Shown one piece after another: positions 26,597 to 36,519 of a stretch of DNA of 64,000 nucleotides. Origin of the DNA: Boseongicola sp. (GTDB lineage Bacteria > Pseudomonadota > Alphaproteobacteria > Rhodobacterales > Rhodobacteraceae); the NCBI GenBank assembly GCA_028824715.1, contig JAPPCV010000114.1:86127-150126 (forward strand), in the 5' to 3' direction. Position 1 is the stretch's first letter. Each line of letters begins with the position of its first letter. The notes beneath the pieces are model-generated. The model was not told where the DNA came from. It saw nothing but the letters and a program-made list of their open reading frames with translations, and did not search any database. Made by a program: the position numbers and the translations under genes.

Positions 26597-27382
26597 ATGT
26601 TACAGGAACCCTTCCGCCGATCGATCCTTGCAATGCTGCTTGGTACAACCGTCGCACTGTCAGCAGGCGCTCTTGTTCCGAACATGGCCGTGGCTCAGGA
26701 CGCGAGATCGATCTTGCGGGCGACCTTCGACAACTGGCGCGCAGACAGCAGCCACTTGACGACGTCGATGACGATCAATCGCGCCTCGGGCACGCGCAAC
26801 CTGACGATGAAGAGCTGGACGCAGGGCGAAAAGAAGGCGCTTGTCCGATTCACCGCACCGGCCCGCGATGCCGGCAATGCGACCCTGCAGGTTGGCAATT
26901 CAACCCATGTCTTCAATCCAAAGCTCAACCAGGTCATCAAGCTGCCCGCCAGCGCCATGTCGCGGAGCTGGATGGGGTCGGACTTTTCCTATGACGATCT
27001 GGCTCGGTCGGACAAGGTGATCGACGACTACACGCATACGCTGAAAGGCATGGTCAACGTCGCGCGCGGCCGGGCGCATGTGATTGAATCAGTTCCCAAG
27101 CGAGGTGTTCCGGTGGTCTGGGGCAAACAGGTTCTGACGATCCGCACGGACGGCGTATTGATGGAAGTCGAATATTACGATCAGGTCGGCAAACGCGTCA
27201 GGGTCATGACAACCGACCGCGTCGGCAGGATCGGCGGACGCCCCTATCCGGTCGTGATGACCATGCGGACGGATGCCAAGCCCGGGCAGTTCACGCGCCT
27301 CACCACTGAATCGGCCGAGTTTGACATCCCCATCCCCTCATACCTGTTCACCAGGTCAAACCTTCAGAACCCACGGGACTGA
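26597..27382 (+). CDS. LolA-fold periplasmic protein (outer-membrane lipoprotein-sorting family)
   Basis: A 261-residue exported protein. The signal peptide covers about 1-34 (SILAMLLGTTVALSAGAL, cut near AVA-QD). The mature part matches the COG2834-like 'outer membrane lipoprotein-sorting protein' group: LRATFDNWRADSSHLTT, then MTINRASGTRNLTMKSW, RFTAPARDAGNATLQV and MGSDFSYDDLARSD. The last is a hallmark of the group. Such proteins have the LolA/LolB fold, which carries lipid in a hydrophobic half-barrel. ATG 26597 gives a clean signal peptide. The stop is followed 3 bp later by the first permease start, so it is the first gene of a five-gene operon. The cargo is unknown. Confidence 0.8.
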   Translation: MLQEPFRRSILAMLLGTTVALSAGALVPNMAVAQDARSILRATFDNWRADSSHLTTSMTINRASGTRNLTMKSWTQGEKKALVRFTAPARDAGNATLQVGNSTHVFNPKLNQVIKLPASAMSRSWMGSDFSYDDLARSDKVIDDYTHTLKGMVNVARGRAHVIESVPKRGVPVVWGKQVLTIRTDGVLMEVEYYDQVGKRVRVMTTDRVGRIGGRPYPVVMTMRTDAKPGQFTRLTTESAEFDIPIPSYLFTRSNLQNPRD

Positions 27383-27385
27383 CCC

Positions 27386-28603
27386 TTGATAGCCGCGCTC
27401 GCCTGGCGAAATATCTGGCGCCAACCAATCCGAACCTCGCTGTCGGTCCTCGGCATGGCGTTCACGTCGATGCTTCTGGTGTTCATGCTGTCCCTTCAAC
27501 TTGCGGCCTACGACACGATGAAGTCCAGCATGCTGCGCATCGCCGACGGATTCGGCCAGTTTCAGATCGAGGGCTACAAGGACGACCCCGAGATGGACAA
27601 GGTCATTGCCGACCCGGCGGCGCTATTGGCCGACCTTGAGAGTGTTTCCGGCATCACGGTGGCAGCGGCCCGCGGAACCGGTTTCGGGCTATTGGCCAGC
27701 GGGGAGCGCAGCTTTGCTGTCGCCATTCTCGGGATCGACCCGGCGCTTGAGCCGGATGTTTCGACATTGTCTGGCCTGGTCGAGCGGGGCCGCAGCCTCG
27801 CGCCCGATGACCGCGACGCGATCGTGCTGGGCGACGGACTGGCGCGCAATCTGCGATTGGGTCTCGGCGACCACGTCGCGCTTTTGGGTTCTGGACTCGA
27901 TGGTTCGGTGGCCGTCGACGTTCTGGAGGTGGTCGGGATATTCAAGTCCAAGGTCCCCGAGCTTGACCGCGCCTTCGCGCAGATGCCGCTTGCGCGGTTT
28001 TCCGAGACATTTCTGATGGCAGGCGGCGTCCATGCCATTGCGGTTGCCGGAGAGGATCTGCCGGACGTGGTGCGGGCCGAGCCCGGGCTGCGGGAAGTCG
28101 CCGCACGGCATGGGGTGGTGTATCTCAACTGGGCCGAACTGCGGCCCGATGTTGAGGAGGCCATCGCGGCCGACATGATCACCGCGATCATGATCTATGT
28201 TACGCTGGTGGTGGTCGTCGTCTTCATCACCCTCAACACGCTGTACATGTCGGTCCTGGAGCGCACGCGCGAATTCGGGGTTCTTCTGGCGATCGGGATG
28301 AAACGCCGCTGGATCGGTCGCATGGTCTGGATGGAAATGATCTTTCTCTCGCTGTTCGGCAACGGGCTGGGCATCCTGCTTGGCATGGCCCTGACCTATT
28401 GGGTGCAGCAGGTCGGCATCGCCATTGAAGGATTGTCCGAGATTTATGAATCATGGGGAATGCCGGCAAGGTTCTATCCGGCGATGACACCGTTCCGCGT
28501 GCTGTTCGGGCCGCTTGCGATTGTCCTTTCCATCGCGGTTCTGGGCATCGTGCCCTATAGCCGCGTTCTTGGGTTGGAACCGGTGAAGGCAATGGCTTCA
28601 TGA
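27386..28603 (+). CDS. LolC/MacB-like ABC permease 1
   Basis: A 405-residue permease of the FtsX/MacB type VII ABC class. It has the N-terminal cytoplasmic helix LAWRNIWRQPIRTSLSVLGM leading into membrane segment 1 (about 18-45) and a periplasmic domain at about 50-265 (ADGFGQFQIEGYKDD, then GDGLARNLRLGLGDHV). Three further membrane segments follow in the C-terminal third (TAIMIYVTLVVVVVFITLNT about 268-290; about 320-350; about 375-395). ERTREFGVLLAIGMKRRWIG is the coupling-helix signature of FtsX domains. The start is TTG at 27386. These mechanotransmission permeases extract substrates from the inner membrane rather than pumping across it. It overlaps permease 2 by 4 nt (ATGA). Confidence 0.85.
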   Translation: MIAALAWRNIWRQPIRTSLSVLGMAFTSMLLVFMLSLQLAAYDTMKSSMLRIADGFGQFQIEGYKDDPEMDKVIADPAALLADLESVSGITVAAARGTGFGLLASGERSFAVAILGIDPALEPDVSTLSGLVERGRSLAPDDRDAIVLGDGLARNLRLGLGDHVALLGSGLDGSVAVDVLEVVGIFKSKVPELDRAFAQMPLARFSETFLMAGGVHAIAVAGEDLPDVVRAEPGLREVAARHGVVYLNWAELRPDVEEAIAADMITAIMIYVTLVVVVVFITLNTLYMSVLERTREFGVLLAIGMKRRWIGRMVWMEMIFLSLFGNGLGILLGMALTYWVQQVGIAIEGLSEIYESWGMPARFYPAMTPFRVLFGPLAIVLSIAVLGIVPYSRVLGLEPVKAMAS

Positions 28604-29829
28604 TCGACGGCCTCAATACCATGCTGCCGCTCGCCTGGCGAAACCTGTGGCGGAACCCGCGTCGCACCGGCATCACGCTGATCGTTGTGGCCATCGGGGT
28701 TTGGTCGATCCTGTTCTTCAATGCATTCATGATTGCCTGGGCCAAGAGCTCGAAGGAAACGACACTTCAACTTCTTCTCGGGTCAGGACAGATCCATGCC
28801 GAAGGCTACATGGACGATCCTTCAATTGAGAAATTGATGGATCCACCCGACCTGGACCTCACCTCGGCACTGGATTTACCCGCCGTAGCCGACTGGACAA
28901 CCCGCGTCGTCGTCCCGGGGGTGGTTCAAAGCGAGTACAAGACCTTGCCGGCCACAATTGTCGGCGTCGACCCGACGGCCGAGGCACGGATTTCGTCGAT
29001 CCCCGGCAAGATCGCCGAAGGTCGATATCTGAACAGCAGCGATGACGACTCGGCCGTCTTGGGGCTGCACATGGTCGAGCGGCTGAAAACCGGGCTTGGT
29101 CGCCGCGTGATCCTGATGTCGCAGAACACCGCGGGCGCGATGTCCGAACAGAGCTTCGACGTGGTTGGCATCTACGACGCCGACAAGGCGACCGAAGACC
29201 TTTATGTCTTCACCGGACGCGCGGCGTCGCAAGCGTTCCTGGGCCTTGAGGGCGAGATCGCCCAGATCGTCTTCGTTCTGCAGGAGGAGATGGCATTGGA
29301 GGACACCATCGCGGCGATGGCCGACGCGGCACCCGACCTTGACGTCCGCAGTTGGAGAGACCTCAACCTGTTCCTGGCCTCTATGGACAGCTACATGCGT
29401 GTCTTCATCCATGTCTGGCTAGGCATCGTCTTTGCGCTGATGGCGATCGGCATCATCAACACCCAACTGATGGCGGTCTTCGAACGAACGCAGGAATTCG
29501 GGCTGCTGCGTGCGCTTGGGATGAAGCCGCGTCGGGTTCTCTTGATGGTCACCATCGAAAACGCACTGCTGATAGGCGTCGGAGTGCTCTTAGGCATGGC
29601 CATGGCAGCCGTGACCATATGGTCGGTCAGCGACGGCATCGACTTCTCGGCCTTTGCCCGGGCCATGGAGATGGTTCAGACCGGCGAAATCATCTATCTT
29701 GATTACGAACCGGACGCATTCATCCTGTTCCCGGGCCTGATTTGGCTTCTTGGCATCTTGGTTGCTCTCTGGCCCGCGCGACGGGCCTCGAATTGCCGCC
29801 CGGTAGACGCCATGCGGCGAGAGACCTAG
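28600..29829 (+). CDS. LolE/MacB-like ABC permease 2
   Basis: A 409-residue second permease of the same class. It opens LAWRNLWRNPRRTGITLIVV, has membrane segment 1 at about 24-48 and a large periplasmic domain (about 50-270; LGSGQIHAEGYMDDPS, then GLGRRVILMSQNTAGAMSEQ). The FtsX domain has VFERTQEFGLLRALGMKPRR as the coupling segment and WPARRASNCRPVDAMR at the end. The two permeases share the overall plan but differ clearly, suggesting a heterodimer like LolC/LolE. Its start overlaps permease 1 (28600-28603). Confidence 0.85.
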   Translation: MIDGLNTMLPLAWRNLWRNPRRTGITLIVVAIGVWSILFFNAFMIAWAKSSKETTLQLLLGSGQIHAEGYMDDPSIEKLMDPPDLDLTSALDLPAVADWTTRVVVPGVVQSEYKTLPATIVGVDPTAEARISSIPGKIAEGRYLNSSDDDSAVLGLHMVERLKTGLGRRVILMSQNTAGAMSEQSFDVVGIYDADKATEDLYVFTGRAASQAFLGLEGEIAQIVFVLQEEMALEDTIAAMADAAPDLDVRSWRDLNLFLASMDSYMRVFIHVWLGIVFALMAIGIINTQLMAVFERTQEFGLLRALGMKPRRVLLMVTIENALLIGVGVLLGMAMAAVTIWSVSDGIDFSAFARAMEMVQTGEIIYLDYEPDAFILFPGLIWLLGILVALWPARRASNCRPVDAMRRET

Positions 29830-29842
29830 GAAGGAACAAGGC

Positions 29843-30535
29843 ATGGATCCGATTGTCACCTGCCGCGGCCTGTCCAAGACCTTCGGAAAGGGCGAACTGG
29901 CGGTGCATGCGCTCAGGGATGTCGATCTGGACATCATGCCCGGCGACATTGCGACGCTTGCCGGGCCGTCGGGGTCGGGCAAGACGACGCTTCTCAACAT
30001 GATTGGCGCCCTTGACGAGCCGACCTCGGGCGAGGTGTCCGTTGGCGGGCAACCGCTGAGCGGGATTTCCCGGTCCGGGCTCTCGGACTTGAGGCTATCG
30101 AAGATCGGCTTTGTCTTCCAGTCTTACAACCTGATCCCGGTCCTGTCGGCGCGCGAGAACATCGAGTTCGTGCTGCAATTGCAGGGTGTTTCCGGTTCGG
30201 AGCGCCACGACCGCGCGATGGAGGCGATCAAGGAGGTCGGGCTTGCCGGCATGGAAGACCGCCGTCCCGGCAAGATGTCGGGCGGGCAACAACAACGGGT
30301 GGCCGTCGCCCGTGCCCTGGTGTCTCGCCCGACCATCGTTCTGGCCGATGAGCCCACGGCCAACCTTGATTCAAAGAACGCGCTTGAGCTTGTCGACCTG
30401 ATGCGGAACCTCAACCGCGAACACGGCACAACCTTTCTGATCGGAACTCACGACGTCAGGGTGATGGAACACTCAATGCGTCACATCGAAATGGTGGACG
30501 GAAGGATCGACAACGATGCGCGCAGCAGCGCCTAG
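29843..30535 (+). CDS. LolD/MacB-like ABC ATPase
   Basis: A 230-residue ATPase of the LolD/FtsE/MacB group. The Walker A is GPSGSGKTTLL, the Q-loop is GFVFQSYNLIPVLSA, the signature is KMSGGQQQRVAVARA and the Walker B is IVLADEPTANLD, followed by the switch histidine in LIGTHDVRVM. AGGAAGGA stands upstream of ATG 29843. The -NLIP- after the Q-loop is typical of the LolD/MacB clade. It is coupled to the outer-membrane gene, whose start at 30516 lies inside the 3' end of this gene. Confidence 0.9.
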   Translation: MDPIVTCRGLSKTFGKGELAVHALRDVDLDIMPGDIATLAGPSGSGKTTLLNMIGALDEPTSGEVSVGGQPLSGISRSGLSDLRLSKIGFVFQSYNLIPVLSARENIEFVLQLQGVSGSERHDRAMEAIKEVGLAGMEDRRPGKMSGGQQQRVAVARALVSRPTIVLADEPTANLDSKNALELVDLMRNLNREHGTTFLIGTHDVRVMEHSMRHIEMVDGRIDNDARSSA

Positions 30536-31742
30536 TGCGGTCATTCTTGCCTTAATCGTGGCAATGCCGGCCGGGGCCGATGACTTTCGTGTGCGGACCG
30601 AAGCTGGGCTGACGTCAAGCAGTGCGGATGCAACAAGTCTGGGGGCTGACCTGGGTTATCGGGGCACCCGGGCGGTGACCGCGAGCGCACGCCTCATGTG
30701 GGACAAGTTCGAGGGATCCTTTCGCCTTGAGGTTCACACACAGCTCAAGGCCGCGCATGGCAGCCAGATTGCCCTGGCGTCCGAATTGATGCCTTCCGAA
30801 GGCCCGCCACGGACATTGCTTGATCTAAGTGGCGACTGGTCGCAAGATCCTGATCAGAAAGTTGTCGGCGCCATCGACCGTGCTTCGGTCGCCTACACCC
30901 GTGAGAGCCTGGTCTTGAAGGCGGGACGGCAAGCCATCACTTGGGGGAGCGGGTTGTTCTTTCACCCATCCGACATCGTGGCCCCGTTTTCGCCAGATGC
31001 GATCGATACCAGCTACAAGCCCGGCGTCGACATGCTCTACGCTCAATACCTTTTTGACAATGGCGCCGATGTCCAGGCCATTGCCGTCCCGCGCGCGGAA
31101 ACTCACGGCGGATCAGTCGACATGGACCAAAGCACCTTGGCAATCCGCGGCAGTGCGACCCTGGGTAACCTAGACGGTGCGCTCTTCTACGCTCGTGACC
31201 GTGGCGACAACGTGACGGGGCTGAACCTGAGCGGTCCATTGGGCGGGGCGTCCTGGAACGCCGAGTACGTCCATTGGCGGCTTGCAGACGGCACCACGCA
31301 TCCGTCCTGGCTCTTCAACATCACCAACTTCGGCACCTTTGGGGATTGGAACGTTTCCTATTTCGCGGAGTATTTTCGCAACGGCTTCGGCGTGGATGCC
31401 TCAGCGCCATTGGACGCTCTGCCAGCAAGCCTGACAAAGCGGATGTCGACCGGACAGGTCTTTTTCGGCGGGCAGGATTTCCTGGCGCCCGGGGGCCAGC
31501 TTCAGGTGACCCCTGATCTTTCGATCAGCCCAAGAGCAATCATCAGCCTGAACGACCGCAGCAAGCTTGCCATGGTCGGCATCAACTACGCGCTCGGCGA
31601 CAACACCGATCTTGCTTTCGACATTTTCAGCCCGTTTGGCGCCGATGGCTCAGAGTTTGGCGGTCGCGAAACATCAGCCGGATCGGGGACTTTTGCGGGC
31701 CCGGCGCGATCGGCGACGCTTCGCCTCATTCATTTCTTCTGA
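30516..31742 (+). CDS. Outer-membrane beta-barrel protein, fifth gene of Lol-like operon
   Basis: A 408-residue exported protein that begins with a signal peptide (AAAPSAVILALIVAMPAGA-DD). The mature chain is rich in alternating hydrophobic/polar beta strands (RVRTEAGLTSSSADA, then VTASARLMWDKFEGSFRLEV, and DLAFDIFSPFG), with a segment YTRESLVLKAGRQAITWGSG that recalls porin-like and DUF1302-like barrels. It ends TLRLIHFF, with the terminal phenylalanine expected of BamA substrates. The start overlaps the ATPase gene by 20 nt. It is not a lipoprotein and not LolB. Together with the LolA-fold protein it suggests an envelope-spanning export route. No family could be named with certainty. Confidence 0.7.
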   Translation: MRAAAPSAVILALIVAMPAGADDFRVRTEAGLTSSSADATSLGADLGYRGTRAVTASARLMWDKFEGSFRLEVHTQLKAAHGSQIALASELMPSEGPPRTLLDLSGDWSQDPDQKVVGAIDRASVAYTRESLVLKAGRQAITWGSGLFFHPSDIVAPFSPDAIDTSYKPGVDMLYAQYLFDNGADVQAIAVPRAETHGGSVDMDQSTLAIRGSATLGNLDGALFYARDRGDNVTGLNLSGPLGGASWNAEYVHWRLADGTTHPSWLFNITNFGTFGDWNVSYFAEYFRNGFGVDASAPLDALPASLTKRMSTGQVFFGGQDFLAPGGQLQVTPDLSISPRAIISLNDRSKLAMVGINYALGDNTDLAFDIFSPFGADGSEFGGRETSAGSGTFAGPARSATLRLIHFF

Positions 31743-32470: not shown

Positions 32471-33115
32471 TCAGGCTTGTGCCTGTTCCCGGGAGTCGAC
32501 CTCAAGCAGCCCGTTAAGGATCACGTTGGCAATCTCGGACGCAATGTATTCCGCATTCAACGTGTCCGAATCCCCATGTTCGAGAAAGAACCGCACCTGC
32601 TTGCCCATGACGGCGTAATATTCTGTCATCGCCCAGATGTGGAACAGCAGCAAGACCGGATCGACAGGACGCACGCGTCCGTCGGCAATCCAGCTCTCGA
32701 TCAGCGAAGCAGAGCGTCGGACGTCTTCGCGCGACCGTATCCAGTGATCCTGCAACATGCCCGCGTCGCGCATGACCTCGTTTGCAAACAGCTTCACCTT
32801 GTTGGGGTGTTCGAGCGAGAACCGGACCTTGCGGACGACATAGTCCCTCAGCACGGATTCGGGATCCCGGTTGATGGCGCTTCCGTCAAACAGATCGGCC
32901 CAGATCCCGATGATCTGGTCGATGACGTCCTGGTACAGCTCTTCCTTGCCGCTGATATGGTAGTGAAGCTTCGTCTTTGTAAGCCCCGCGCGATCAGCGA
33001 TGGCTTGGGTGGTGGTGCCGCGCAGACCATGCTCTGCGAATTCCGCAATAGCGGCCTCGCGGATCTTCTCGTTGAGCGCCTCGCGCTTTTGGGCGAAATC
33101 TGAACGTGATTTCAT
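32471..33115 (-). CDS. TetR-family regulator, RutR-like
   Basis: A 214-residue TetR regulator. The helix-turn-helix lies at about 17-60 (IREAAIAEFAEHGLRGTTTQ, AIADRAGLTKTKLHYHISGK). The C-terminal domain (ELYQDVIDQIIGIWADLFDG, then RPVDPVLLLFHIWAMTEYYA) is the YcdC/RutR type, whose founding member senses uracil in pyrimidine degradation. The start at 33115 (MKSRSDFAQKREAL) fits the domain; the open frame upstream is not homologous. It lies downstream of, and on the same strand as, the seven-gene operon, 395 bp from its last gene. It is the probable regulator of that operon. Confidence 0.85.
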   Translation of the reverse strand: MKSRSDFAQKREALNEKIREAAIAEFAEHGLRGTTTQAIADRAGLTKTKLHYHISGKEELYQDVIDQIIGIWADLFDGSAINRDPESVLRDYVVRKVRFSLEHPNKVKLFANEVMRDAGMLQDHWIRSREDVRRSASLIESWIADGRVRPVDPVLLLFHIWAMTEYYAVMGKQVRFFLEHGDSDTLNAEYIASEIANVILNGLLEVDSREQAQA

Positions 33116-33510
33116 GTGCTGACCGGGCTGCAAGCCGTGGCACCGACCGGGATGTCGTCGGTGGGCATCATCGCCGCAACCTCGACTACGCAAAAGTTCG
33201 ACGGTTCGTCTTTGGTATGCATCTTCCTTACCCGGTTGAGACGCGGAAAACCAGACAGCTTCCGAAGACATCGTGCCAACTTGAAGATGTCTTCCACCCC
33301 TGTTTCCGGCTCCTGTCAGGGTCATTCCGATCTGGTCGCGAAAGTACCTTGCCTGTGCCAAAGCCTGACCGTCCCCGGCGTCAATCGAGAATTCGCCAGC
33401 CTGCCCTATAGTCCGGCCTGCGCATTCGGGCAAGCCGCGGAAGCCGAGTTCCAGAAGTGCAAGGTCTTATTGTCATGTCCAGGCGGAACGGCGTGCAGGC
33501 AGAACGGCGG
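33116..33510. other. Spacer between reductase and TetR genes
   Basis: 395 bp. No gene was recognised on either strand. It probably holds the TetR promoter; no clear operator palindrome could be identified by eye. Confidence 0.4.
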
Positions 33511-34116
33511 TCACGGCCGGACGGGTATGCGCTGCAAGGTCCTTTCGACACGGGCGAGAAAGCCGGTACGGTCCTTCTCGGTCGAGTTGTTCATGTCGTA
33601 GAGCTGGAGCCAGATCACCTTGCACTTCGGCGAAAACAGCGGGCGCAGACCCCTTGTCCACAAGCTGCGTCCGGGATCGCGTATCAGGCGGATCCACCAC
33701 CATGGCGAGCCCGATGTAGTTATCCCGGCAAAGAGCCGGATGTGCCCGAGTCGCCCCTTTGTGCGCCTCAGCCGGGCATCGGCCACTTCAAACGCAATTC
33801 CGGGAAGCCATACCCTTTCGAGCCAGCCCTTCAGCATCGCCGGAGGTCCGTAGTACCAGGTCGGGTAGATCACCAGCAGCCCCTCAGCCCATTTCAGGTC
33901 GTCAATGTGCTCTGGGTGCTTGTCGATGATGGCCTGGGTGTGCGGCAGGTAGTCTGACCATTCCTGCTCGCTCAGGACCGGCTCGAATTCCTCGCGGTAG
34001 AGATCGCGTACACGCACGTCATGGCCTGCCGCACGCAAGGTGCGGCAGGCGGTGTCGAAGACGGCGGCGCCAAAGCTTTCACGACTCGGGTGACAGAATA
34101 CCACAAGCAGTCGCAT
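33511..34116 (-). CDS. Flavodoxin-fold NAD(P)H:quinone oxidoreductase
   Basis: A 201-residue protein of the NQO/MdaB/KefF flavodoxin-fold group: MRLLVVFCHPSRESFGAAVF at the start and KWAEGLLVIYPTWYYGPPAM with the FMN/FAD-binding YPTWYYGPPAMLKGW. The family transfers hydride from NAD(P)H to quinones or other acceptors. ATG 34116 begins the fold directly; GTG 34128 is an alternative start right after the stop of the binding-protein gene. It is the last gene of the seven-gene operon and may recycle reducing equivalents for a ring-reduction or oxidation step. Confidence 0.8.
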   Translation of the reverse strand: MRLLVVFCHPSRESFGAAVFDTACRTLRAAGHDVRVRDLYREEFEPVLSEQEWSDYLPHTQAIIDKHPEHIDDLKWAEGLLVIYPTWYYGPPAMLKGWLERVWLPGIAFEVADARLRRTKGRLGHIRLFAGITTSGSPWWWIRLIRDPGRSLWTRGLRPLFSPKCKVIWLQLYDMNNSTEKDRTGFLARVERTLQRIPVRP

Positions 34117-34128
34117 GGCCCCGCGCAC

Positions 34129-35118
34129 CTACGGCTTGAGGTCCATTCCGACCATCTTGTTCACGAAGCGGTCGGTTGCGACCATTTCCACATCGACCGA
34201 ACCGGCCTCGATGATTCCGGCCTCCACGGCAAGATCGTGAAAGGCCCTGACCCTCTGCAGGTCTATCGCGCCGATTCCGGCCTCGAGCTGGTAGCCACTG
34301 TCAATGATTCCGAGCGCCTTCATCTGCGCGACCTCGGCTGCGAGCTTTTCGGGTGTCTGGTCCGGATTGGCTTCAATGATTGCCGCGTTGCCTGCGGAAT
34401 TGTCGCCGTAGAGGTAATTGTACCAACCGATGGTGGACGCATCGATGAAGCGCTGCACGAGGTCGGGATTGCTTTCAACCAGTTCGACCCTGGTCTCAAT
34501 GGTGGTCGAATAGGTGCTCCAGCCATAGTCGGCCAGCACGAAAGTCTCCACTTCTGCACCTGCGCTTGCCGCGTAGAGCGGTTCGGCCGTCGCGTAGCCC
34601 TGCTGCACCATCTTCTCGTCATTCAGGAATTCGGCGAGGTTGTAGCCGTAGGGACGCAGGCTCTCGTCGCGGAAGCCGTGCGCAGCCGTCATCCACTGCC
34701 AGAAGCTGAACTGCCCATCTTTCGAGATCAGGATCTTCGGCGCGTTCACAAGGTCATCCCAGCCGCCATACTGGCCCTTGTGGGCGATCAGGACCTGCGG
34801 GTCCTTTTCAAAATAGGACGCTACGACGATCGTGGGAATTTCGTTGCGGACGTTGTCGATCGACAGCAGCAGGTTCCCGGTCATCAGGAAGTCGATCTTT
34901 CCTGCGGCCAGGAGCGGGCGGTTGTTCAACTGAGGACCGCCCATCTGGATTTCCACGTCCAACCCGTGCTCCTCGTAGGTTCCGTCGGCGAGCGCCTGGT
35001 AGAAGCCGCCATGACCGCCCTGGGCCAGCCAATTGGTGGCAAATACGACCTTGTCGGCGGCCGTGGCACCGCCCGCGACCAGCATTGCGGCCAGCGCGGC
35101 GAACATTCTCTTCATCAT
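34129..35118 (-). CDS. ABC substrate-binding protein, NMT1/ThiY-like
   Basis: A 329-residue periplasmic binding protein with a signal peptide (MFAALAAMLVAGGATA-AD) and an NMT1-type fold: VVFATNWLAQGGHGGFYQAL, then TYEEHGLDVEIQMGGPQLNN and LAAGKIDFLMTGNLLLSIDN. Relatives bind hydroxymethylpyrimidine, riboflavin or aromatic compounds; the WLAQGGHGG segment matches the pyrimidine-binding type in position. It is the sixth gene of the operon, well separated from its ATPase and permease by two enzymes, an unusual order. GGAG stands before the ATG at 35118. Confidence 0.85.
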   Translation of the reverse strand: MMKRMFAALAAMLVAGGATAADKVVFATNWLAQGGHGGFYQALADGTYEEHGLDVEIQMGGPQLNNRPLLAAGKIDFLMTGNLLLSIDNVRNEIPTIVVASYFEKDPQVLIAHKGQYGGWDDLVNAPKILISKDGQFSFWQWMTAAHGFRDESLRPYGYNLAEFLNDEKMVQQGYATAEPLYAASAGAEVETFVLADYGWSTYSTTIETRVELVESNPDLVQRFIDASTIGWYNYLYGDNSAGNAAIIEANPDQTPEKLAAEVAQMKALGIIDSGYQLEAGIGAIDLQRVRAFHDLAVEAGIIEAGSVDVEMVATDRFVNKMVGMDLKP

Positions 35119-35151
35119 GGTTTCATTCTCCTTTTTGCATGACAGTTCGGG

Positions 35152-36519
35152 TTACGCCCTTTCCATTTCGGGCAGCCAGCCCCGGGTTTTTCCCGGGTTC
35201 ATCAAGCCGTGGGGATCGGCTTCCTTCTTGAATTCGATCTGCACCGTGTCGATTTCCTTCATGCCCCCGTCTTCAATCGTGATCGCATGGGGATCGAAAA
35301 TCGTGCAGCCGTCGATCTCTTCCATTTCGTGAATGATCTCGTACATGCGCTCCCGGCCACGCCACCTCACGAGCGGCAACGCGAAGATCTGGACCGCGCC
35401 GTCCATGCGCGCCATCTCGTGATGGAAATGGACTTCGTCGCCATAGCGCTCCTTCTGGCGCACGACGAGACCAGGATCGAACGGGCGCGGATAGGCCACC
35501 TGCAGATAGGACCAGATGCCCGGTTCGAGCTTCAGCGCCTGCAGCGTGGTGTGGTTCCAACCGCATTCCCAGGCCGGAGGCAGGTTGGCGGCCTCTACCT
35601 CGTGCAGGGACTTTTCAAGGCTGACCGTTCCCTGGAAGCTTTCCACGCAAGCACGGAATTCCAGCATCGCGTCCGGCGCCATCATCGAGAAGACCGCATC
35701 CCTTCCGCCGGGGAAATGGTCGGTGAGGCGACGATAGAAGCGGGCGAATCCGCGTTCGACGACCGTCAGGAGATAGGCGTCGAGACCTGCGTCCTGTACC
35801 TGTACGGCGAAGTCGAGTGCCGTGCGATAGCCGTCGAAGAGCGCGATCGCGTGACTCCAGTCGGTGGCCGGCGCAAGCGCATAGTCCATCTCGGTGATGA
35901 TGCCGTTTGTGCCGTAGGCGTGCTGGGCCTTCAGGATGTCCTTGCCGCGGAGCTCGATGATCCTGGGCTTCTTCTCGACGGTGACGATGCGCAGGTAGGT
36001 GATGTTTCCTCCGTCGCGCAGCATTCCATGGCGCAGCGAACCGATGCCACCCGAGCCGCCGGCCACGAATCCCCCCATCGTGGCGATCCGCTTGGTCGAG
36101 GGAAACATGGTCAGCATCTGCCCGGTTCGGGCCACCTCGTTCTCTACTTTCCCGATGCGAGCGCCTGCCCCGCAGATCACGCGCCCGTCGGAGATTTCGC
36201 GTATGGCAGACAGGCCGGTGATCTCCAGAATCACGCCGCCGTCGATCGGGACGCACTGCCCGTAGTTGCCGGTGCCGCCACCCCTGACAGTCAAGGGAAT
36301 TCGGTGCCGCGCCACCGATTCGGCAATGGTCCTGACCTCCTCTTCGGTCTGCGGACGCACCAGCAACTGGCCCAGGCAGTGGTCGAGCCGCTCCTTCAGG
36401 ATCGGCGAGTACCAGTAGTAGTCACGTGACTTCGTCTGCAGCAGCCCAGCGTCGTCATGGCAAGGGATGCTTCCGATGTCCTTTCGGAATGCCGCCAGCT
36501 GTTCAGCCGTTGCTCTCAT
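35152..36519 (-). CDS. FAD-binding oxidoreductase (VAO/PCMH family)
   Basis: A 455-residue FAD-linked oxidase or dehydrogenase of the VAO family. The FAD-binding PCMH domain covers about 50-230: LLVRPQTEEEVRTIAESVAR, then LTVRGGGTGNYGQCVPIDGG and GGFVAGGSGGIGSLRHGML. The C-terminal part ends with GLMNPGKTRGWLPEME, a hallmark of glycolate-oxidase-like FAD enzymes. It starts within the stop of the amidohydrolase gene (ATGA overlap 36516-36519). No signal peptide is seen, so it acts in the cytoplasm. The substrate is unknown; in this operon it may oxidise a hydroxy acid or a ring carbon released by the hydrolases. Confidence 0.85.
   Translation of the reverse strand: MRATAEQLAAFRKDIGSIPCHDDAGLLQTKSRDYYWYSPILKERLDHCLGQLLVRPQTEEEVRTIAESVARHRIPLTVRGGGTGNYGQCVPIDGGVILEITGLSAIREISDGRVICGAGARIGKVENEVARTGQMLTMFPSTKRIATMGGFVAGGSGGIGSLRHGMLRDGGNITYLRIVTVEKKPRIIELRGKDILKAQHAYGTNGIITEMDYALAPATDWSHAIALFDGYRTALDFAVQVQDAGLDAYLLTVVERGFARFYRRLTDHFPGGRDAVFSMMAPDAMLEFRACVESFQGTVSLEKSLHEVEAANLPPAWECGWNHTTLQALKLEPGIWSYLQVAYPRPFDPGLVVRQKERYGDEVHFHHEMARMDGAVQIFALPLVRWRGRERMYEIIHEMEEIDGCTIFDPHAITIEDGGMKEIDTVQIEFKKEADPHGLMNPGKTRGWLPEMERA

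Follow-up and report, generated by a model that had tools for sequence, protein, structure and literature searches.

A 64,000-nucleotide stretch of DNA from Boseongicola sp. (Rhodobacterales), hereafter the window, carries five co-directional genes on its forward (+) strand at 26597..31742. In order, they encode a LolA-like carrier, two permeases (A and B), an ATPase and a predicted outer-membrane β-barrel. The first-pass annotation of this DNA had proposed such an operon, and the five-gene architecture is real: Pfam supports the carrier, permeases and ATPase, a fold model supports the barrel, and the same order recurs in distant genomes.

The carrier (26597..27382, +) is a 261-residue protein of family PF17131 (Pfam E value 1.9e-46). 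Its start at 26597 was picked for the signal-peptide-like N terminus that it gives, judged by eye with no predictor run; the frame is open from 26420. Relatives among PDB structures are 4z48, 9tp6, 3bk5 and 3buu. Permease A (27386..28603, +; 405 residues, TTG start) and permease B (28600..29829, +; 409 residues) are both of the FtsX/MacB_PCD type, with Pfam E values of 2.7e-16 and 9.3e-16, respectively, for FtsX and 8.7e-11 and 6.8e-12 for MacB_PCD. The solved chains closest to permease A are LolE (best E value 8.1e-14) and those closest to permease B are LolE and LolF; the solved relatives of both are mainly LolE, LolF, LolC and MacB. The ATPase (29843..30535, +; 230 residues) is of the LolD/DevA type (ABC_tran, E value 4.1e-34), with the Walker A motif GPSGSGKT and the signature MSGGQQQR. 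With FtsX and MacB_PCD domains plus an ABC_tran ATPase, the pump belongs to the type VII (MacB/LolCDE/FtsEX) superfamily of ATP-binding cassette (ABC) systems.

The last gene (30516..31742, +) encodes a 408-residue DUF1302-related protein that ends in phenylalanine and is predicted to form an 18-strand outer-membrane β-barrel (AlphaFold2 model, predicted local distance difference test (pLDDT) 84.5). Fold neighbours of this model are OprD/Occ and AlgE. Residues 137–160 (30924..30995, +; GRQAITWGSGLFFHPSDIVAPFSP) span the end of predicted strand 5 and the start of the predicted third extracellular loop, which is the best conserved of the longer loops: a conservation of 90% or more is reached by 18 of its 31 positions in alignment A1 and by 4 of them in the wider alignment A4. 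Loop 3 of porins commonly folds inwards.

Conservation and neighbourhood of the set

A barrel profile matched nine of 289 alphaproteobacterial genomes, the own genome included. In all eight others, the barrel (21–35% identical to that of the window) closes the same carrier–permease–permease–ATPase–barrel order. A wider barrel profile matched 43 of 397 genomes of the phylum, a count that includes the own genome and several weak matches. Regions were retrieved from 20 of the 42 others, the remainder being obtained only as short flanks or not at all. The same five genes occur in the same order in 15 of these 20 regions, and a sixteenth (L079) has all five reordered as carrier, ATPase, permeases, barrel. 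The genome searches score the first candidates in each genome (four or six for the barrel), and the counts are lower bounds. A gene-neighbourhood search, suggested in the first-pass annotation as a check, thus links the barrel to permeases, ATPase and carrier in 8/8 genomes of the class and 16/20 regions of the phylum. In 26 of 29 short loci (own locus excluded; genomes partly shared with the 20 regions), the ATPase gene is found upstream of the barrel gene. A permease takes that place in L058 and L059, and L070 shows the barrel only, its contig ending there.

As the barrel had served to find these loci, plasmid records were also searched with the carrier. Six records matched and five regions were opened (a Prevotella record was not). 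All five genes are present in order in two of the five, from Vibrio campbellii (L120) and Persicobacter (Bacteroidota; L121); a third, from Haliovirga (L119), is an MMPL set. The set is kept in one order across Alpha-, Zeta- and Gammaproteobacteria and on a Bacteroidota plasmid. Its distribution in the own family is patchy, with the set in three genomes (own included) and no match in at least 20 listed; within one genus, G570 has the set and G541 shows no match. It is also present in two alphaproteobacterial genomes of 1.3–1.4 Mb from one family (L035 and L036), which suggests that it matters even with a small genome. A Cas9-like open reading frame (ORF) was seen by eye near the set in L036.

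Ten of the 15 complete phylum regions belong to one family, f172 (L075–L078, L080–L082, L086, L089 and L090). We presume that this family is Mariprofundaceae, since a Mariprofundus aestuarium protein shares 100% identity with the barrel of L089. Mariprofundaceae are iron-oxidising, and one idea is that the set may be tied to the iron-oxidising life or the stalk material of these presumed members. In L077, L078, L082 and L089, a protein family of ~360–370 residues adjoins the barrel gene and faces it.

A recurrent neighbour of the set is a TetR-type regulator. TetR_N genes stand directly beside lolA in seven alphaproteobacterial loci, divergently in L021, L034, L072 and L073 and in line in L039, L040 and L041, and a TetR-like gene precedes the Persicobacter L121 set. 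TetR genes thus adjoin the operon in at least 8 of the 28 module loci inspected, a lower bound, since outside the Alphaproteobacteria the check consisted only of a tblastn search with three TetR queries. The 25 largest flanking clusters from 26 loci revealed no evident biosynthetic neighbour common to the sets.

The window itself has a TetR/RutR-like gene at 32471-33433, which was considered as the operon's regulator and rejected. It lies downstream on the opposite strand, and it occurs together with the next three genes downstream of the operon in L015, L016, L018 and L022. The stretch 32471-36519 (−) contains this RutR-like TetR gene (122 bits, cut-off 368) and, by eye, NAD(P)H oxidoreductase-like, substrate-binding and FAD-oxidase-like genes. 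In our judgement, it is probably a separate catabolic cluster.

Comparison with Lol systems

The first-pass annotation took the operon for a second set apart from the housekeeping Lol machinery, and the rest of the genome bears this out. A profile search gave one PF03548 LolA match, on contig C132, outside the operon. The genome's own LolC/E, on contig C172, scores 358.2 bits against the lolCE model (slightly below the cut-off of 362.45), and a LolD-like ATPase ORF lies directly downstream of it. The operon's proteins miss the Lol equivalog cut-offs by a wide margin: permeases A and B reach 85.6 and 91.0 bits against TIGR02212 (lolCE), and the ATPase reaches 220.1 bits against the LolD model (cut-off 307.75) and 227.8 bits against DevA (cut-off 295.8). 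Its carrier is assigned by Pfam to PF17131, not to PF03548.

The permeases also differ in a specific loop. We aligned 20 module permeases (10 pairs) with the own LolC/E, which was separately aligned with Escherichia coli LolC. The segment of the extended LolC loop, which we take to be the Hook, the docking site for LolA, has 8 residues in 20/20 module permeases versus 12 in the own LolC/E. Four residues of the own LolC/E at this presumed docking loop are kept in none of the 20. The LolA–LolC complex (PDB 6f3z) was among the structure matches. Because the permeases and ATPase score so far below the Lol cut-offs and no module permease keeps the docking-loop residues, the set, as judged from sequence, does not qualify strictly as a Lol system.

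These results also bear on the possibility that the operon is a duplicated housekeeping LolCDE–LolA set with no special role. The gene types do resemble lolA, lolC, lolE and lolD, but the equivalog scores are far too low, the carrier is of another family than the sole LolA match, LolA and LolC/E are present on other contigs, and the set is joined to a barrel gene in 8/8 and 16/20 barrel-found loci and in 2/5 carrier-found loci. We rejected a Lol duplicate as very improbable. What the set has in common with LolCDE–LolA(–LolB) is the permease type, a separate ATPase and a carrier of the LolA superfamily; what sets it apart, besides the scores, the shorter loop and the carrier family, is its own barrel and its coexistence with a housekeeping set. 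The description 'Lol-like' does not hold in every respect: the carrier and barrel belong with PF17131 and DUF1302-type proteins, which are often paired with RND (resistance-nodulation-division)/MMPL pumps, and the longer LolC-type loop is absent from both permeases. The further contrast drawn in the first-pass annotation, a barrel instead of LolB, was right in that the set is predicted to have its own barrel, but was overstated: LolB (PF03550) had no match in the 98%-complete own genome, with a positive E. coli control. Alphaproteobacteria are commonly without LolB, so that its absence discriminates weakly.

A different use of Lol-type parts would be a second, dedicated lipoprotein route, in which one or a few lipoproteins are handled by the pump and carrier and are then inserted into the outer membrane, or flipped to the cell surface, by the barrel. 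It would fit permeases whose closest solved chains are LolE and LolF and a carrier of the LolA superfamily, and lipoprotein export has been suggested as possible for a similar Borrelia cluster (PMC13078400). A simple scan for lipoboxes up to 3 kb from the set gave candidates in 5 of 28 loci, including one that lacks credibility; none is homologous to another and none lies beside the window's set. Since only one start of each ORF is considered, the scan overlooks some candidates, such as an ORF of L039: by eye, L039 and L041, from one family, have a common lipoprotein-like ORF beside the barrel, a point in favour of this route. The shorter LolC-type loop in all 20 module permeases argues against it, as do the TetR neighbours, which suit small molecules, and the weak binding of LolB by Porphyromonas gingivalis LolA3, a PDB relative of the carrier (PMC13103446). 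A role in flexirubin has been suggested for another LolA/LolB pair (PMC11885536). We regard a lipoprotein route as unlikely, although it is the strongest of the alternatives.

Kinship with other carrier–barrel sets

The delivery half of the set has relatives beside pumps of another kind. About 25 kb before the window on the same contig (C140), the own genome has an operon for an MMPL/RND pump, a PF17131 carrier and a DUF1302 barrel (L011:7222-11956), which is the RND counterpart of the set. When hhalign was used to compare the profile of the ABC-set barrels with one built from seven other barrels (six of RND sets plus one from a different carrier locus), the two matched (96.3%, E value 1.8e-9). 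The ABC-set profile also recovers the own DUF1302 paralogue (E value 3.6e-6). Of 13 ABC-set barrels, three match PF06980 (DUF1302) itself at an E value of 0.1, the window barrel not among them. The only plasmid match of the window barrel (22.5% identity, E value 2e-9) is a barrel of Haliovirga (Fusobacteriota) encoded downstream of TetR, MMPL, LolA-like and ferredoxin genes. At the predicted entry to loop 3 from strand 5, the motif G-R-[QT]-x3-[WF]-[GS] is present in 13/13 ABC-set barrels and a similar one, G-x5-W-G, in 7/7 barrels of the RND-linked/other-carrier set, with patterns chosen after the sequences had been inspected. On the Haliovirga abyssi plasmid pHIC (L119), a stretch of 17 kb holds two LolA-like/MMPL sets that run on opposite strands; one of them includes a TetR gene, and its carrier and barrel genes are separated by a ferredoxin gene.

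In 66 alphaproteobacterial genomes, 21 places match PF17131 strongly (E value below 1e-30), three of them in the own genome. An RND homologue lies within a 1.5 kb flank at nine, an FtsX permease at six (the window included) and neither at six. In a tree of 43 of 46 carrier rows (L118 and L099 were dropped as fragments, and L105 for want of a BLAST match to the LolA queries), 27 ABC-set carriers fall on one side of one branch (support 99/98), apart from eight RND-labelled rows. Because carrier and barrel are both related to their counterparts in RND/MMPL sets, the engine would differ while the delivery half is common. A further cluster in the own genome (contig C52, L010:3371-13281) comprises a second MMPL pump, a GPP34 plus cytochrome P450 ORF, a third PF17131 protein and a flavin amine oxidase, and is possibly a lipid-modifying and export cluster.

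Among described systems, AmeABCD of Castellaniella defragrans combines an RND pump of the HAE3 type with a DUF1329 protein of the LolA superfamily and a DUF1302 barrel, and its deletion lowers monoterpene tolerance (PMC6394551). Compared by Pfam family and not through the Ame sequences, both systems have a LolA-superfamily carrier and a DUF1302-type outer-membrane protein beside one inner-membrane engine. That engine is an ABC pair with an ATPase in the window, whereas AmeABCD has an RND pump and a link to monoterpene metabolism; AmeABCD also has a second periplasmic protein, AmeC, with no equivalent among the five genes (the rest of the genome was not searched). In our reading, one carrier-plus-barrel export module exists in two forms, an ABC-driven one, to which the set belongs, and an RND-driven one that would include AmeABCD; the latter link is drawn at the level of Pfam families.

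Other systems share parts of this plan. Borrelia BBJ23–29, for which export of a non-polar ligand was proposed computationally, likewise joins a type VII ABC unit to a LolA-like protein and an outer-membrane barrel (PMC13078400). Its barrel is of the Omp85 family, its permease is a proposed homodimer, and two tetratricopeptide repeat (TPR) proteins and one unknown protein accompany them, whereas the barrel of the window set is DUF1302-related, its two permeases differ from each other and none of its genes encodes a TPR protein. Omp85 was not among the Pfam matches of 13 ABC-set barrels at an E value of 0.1; a lack of Omp85 among fold neighbours would prove nothing. Bacteroidota operons of TetR, MMPL, LolA-like and hypothetical genes respond strongly to, or are raised under, low hemin or iron (PMC10470040, PMC10434189). 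They too have a LolA-like carrier beside a further unnamed gene and a TetR regulator, with an MMPL engine instead of the FtsX pair. Finally, MacAB–TolC has the same FtsX/MacB_PCD permease type, but the ATPase of the set is unfused and a carrier and DUF1302-like barrel are present instead; a MacAB–TolC type was rejected on the separate ATPase and on the absence of a fusion protein or TolC among the five genes (the rest of the genome was not searched).

Proposed route, cargo and significance

We consider it probable that the five genes encode a shuttle exporter of a lipid-like molecule, made up of the ABC pump, the LolA-like carrier and the barrel. The pump would lift a lipid-like, hydrophobic cargo out of the inner membrane. 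The open half-barrel of the PF17131 carrier would receive the acyl or hydrophobic part of this cargo and cross the periplasm with it. The carrier would then dock at the periplasmic face of the barrel, which would free the cargo into or through the outer membrane, with release controlled by the conserved and probably inward-folded third loop. That at least 8 of 28 loci have an adjoining TetR gene speaks for a cargo that is small and hydrophobic. Most likely it is a small amphipathic or hydrophobic compound or a special lipid, sensed in several lineages by the adjacent TetR-type regulator.

We infer the direction of transport, as we do the cargo and the assembly of the exporter. LolE, LolF, LolC and MacB, the main solved relatives of the permeases, act outwards, and these relatives, with the RND partners of related carrier–barrel pairs, point to export. 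Retrograde transport, with a hydrophobic compound entering from outside through the barrel, travelling inwards on the carrier and being accepted by the ABC unit at the cost of ATP, would suit a barrel model closest to OprD/Occ-type porins, which take up substrates. It is at odds with the outward-acting permease relatives and with related RND-linked sets taken as exporters (AmeABCD, PMC6394551), and no common catabolic neighbour was evident in the 25 largest flanking clusters; we judge uptake somewhat less likely even than the lipoprotein route. FtsEX shares the type VII ABC fold, and the unit could accordingly be imagined as a signalling or gating device that drives carrier and barrel in envelope remodelling and moves no cargo. 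This seems improbable given the transport role assigned to the LolA-like part in AmeABCD, in LolA/LolB and in the Borrelia proposal (PMC6394551, PMC13103446, PMC13078400).

Several observations weigh against an exporter of this kind or its kinship with RND sets. Structure prediction, another check suggested at the outset, yielded an 18-strand model for the barrel but only a low-confidence model for the carrier (pLDDT 66), and the porin-like fold neighbours of the barrel are also compatible with a diffusion channel. The set is incomplete in four of the 20 phylum regions: L083 and L085 have barrel matches alone, L084 has ATPase and barrel, and in L091, on a 6 kb contig, four genes but no carrier were found. 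The Persicobacter plasmid regions L122 and L123 have an ATPase, two permeases and a carrier with no barrel match. No TetR gene adjoins the window's own operon, and the tblastn search of non-alphaproteobacterial loci found one in L121 only. The lipoprotein-like ORF of L039 and L041 counts on the same side, as does the family-level nature of the AmeABCD link, the Ame proteins themselves not having been compared. The carrier tree drew most of its ABC rows from barrel-found loci and triggered a program warning that long branches meet; its RND row L010 has the pump ~5 kb off on the other strand. The FtsX-adjacent carriers L104, L106 and L111 lie outside the ABC-set group, which leaves room for more than one origin of FtsX coupling. 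By eye, these alphaproteobacterial loci and L105 have an FtsX permease, then the PF17131 carrier, then a barrel-like ORF.

Searches of an open-access library, in which subscription papers are scarce, gave no paper recognised as describing this five-gene set; to that extent, the first-pass view that it is not an already named and characterised system stands. We rate the set as unnamed as far as searched, broad, well conserved and built of known parts, with a recent conceptual precedent in Borrelia.

Export across the two membranes of Gram-negative bacteria is usually explained by continuous tunnels (MacAB–TolC, AcrAB–TolC) or bridges (Lpt), and shuttles are known mainly for lipoproteins. More tentatively, and short of calling it probable, we suggest a widespread, unnamed class of trans-envelope exporter that works as a shuttle and not as a tunnel. 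In it, a LolA-like carrier and a dedicated DUF1302-type barrel, with no fusion protein or TolC, may have been coupled by evolution to either of two unrelated engines, RND or LolCDE-like ABC, to export TetR-sensed hydrophobic molecules. The likeness to RND sets raises a testable question, namely whether carrier plus barrel act as one delivery unit able to serve different pumps. If the proposal is true, lipids or hydrophobic compounds would have an additional export route in the form of a five-gene shuttle with its own barrel, present complete in groups as distant as Rhodobacterales, Mariprofundaceae, vibrios and Bacteroidota.

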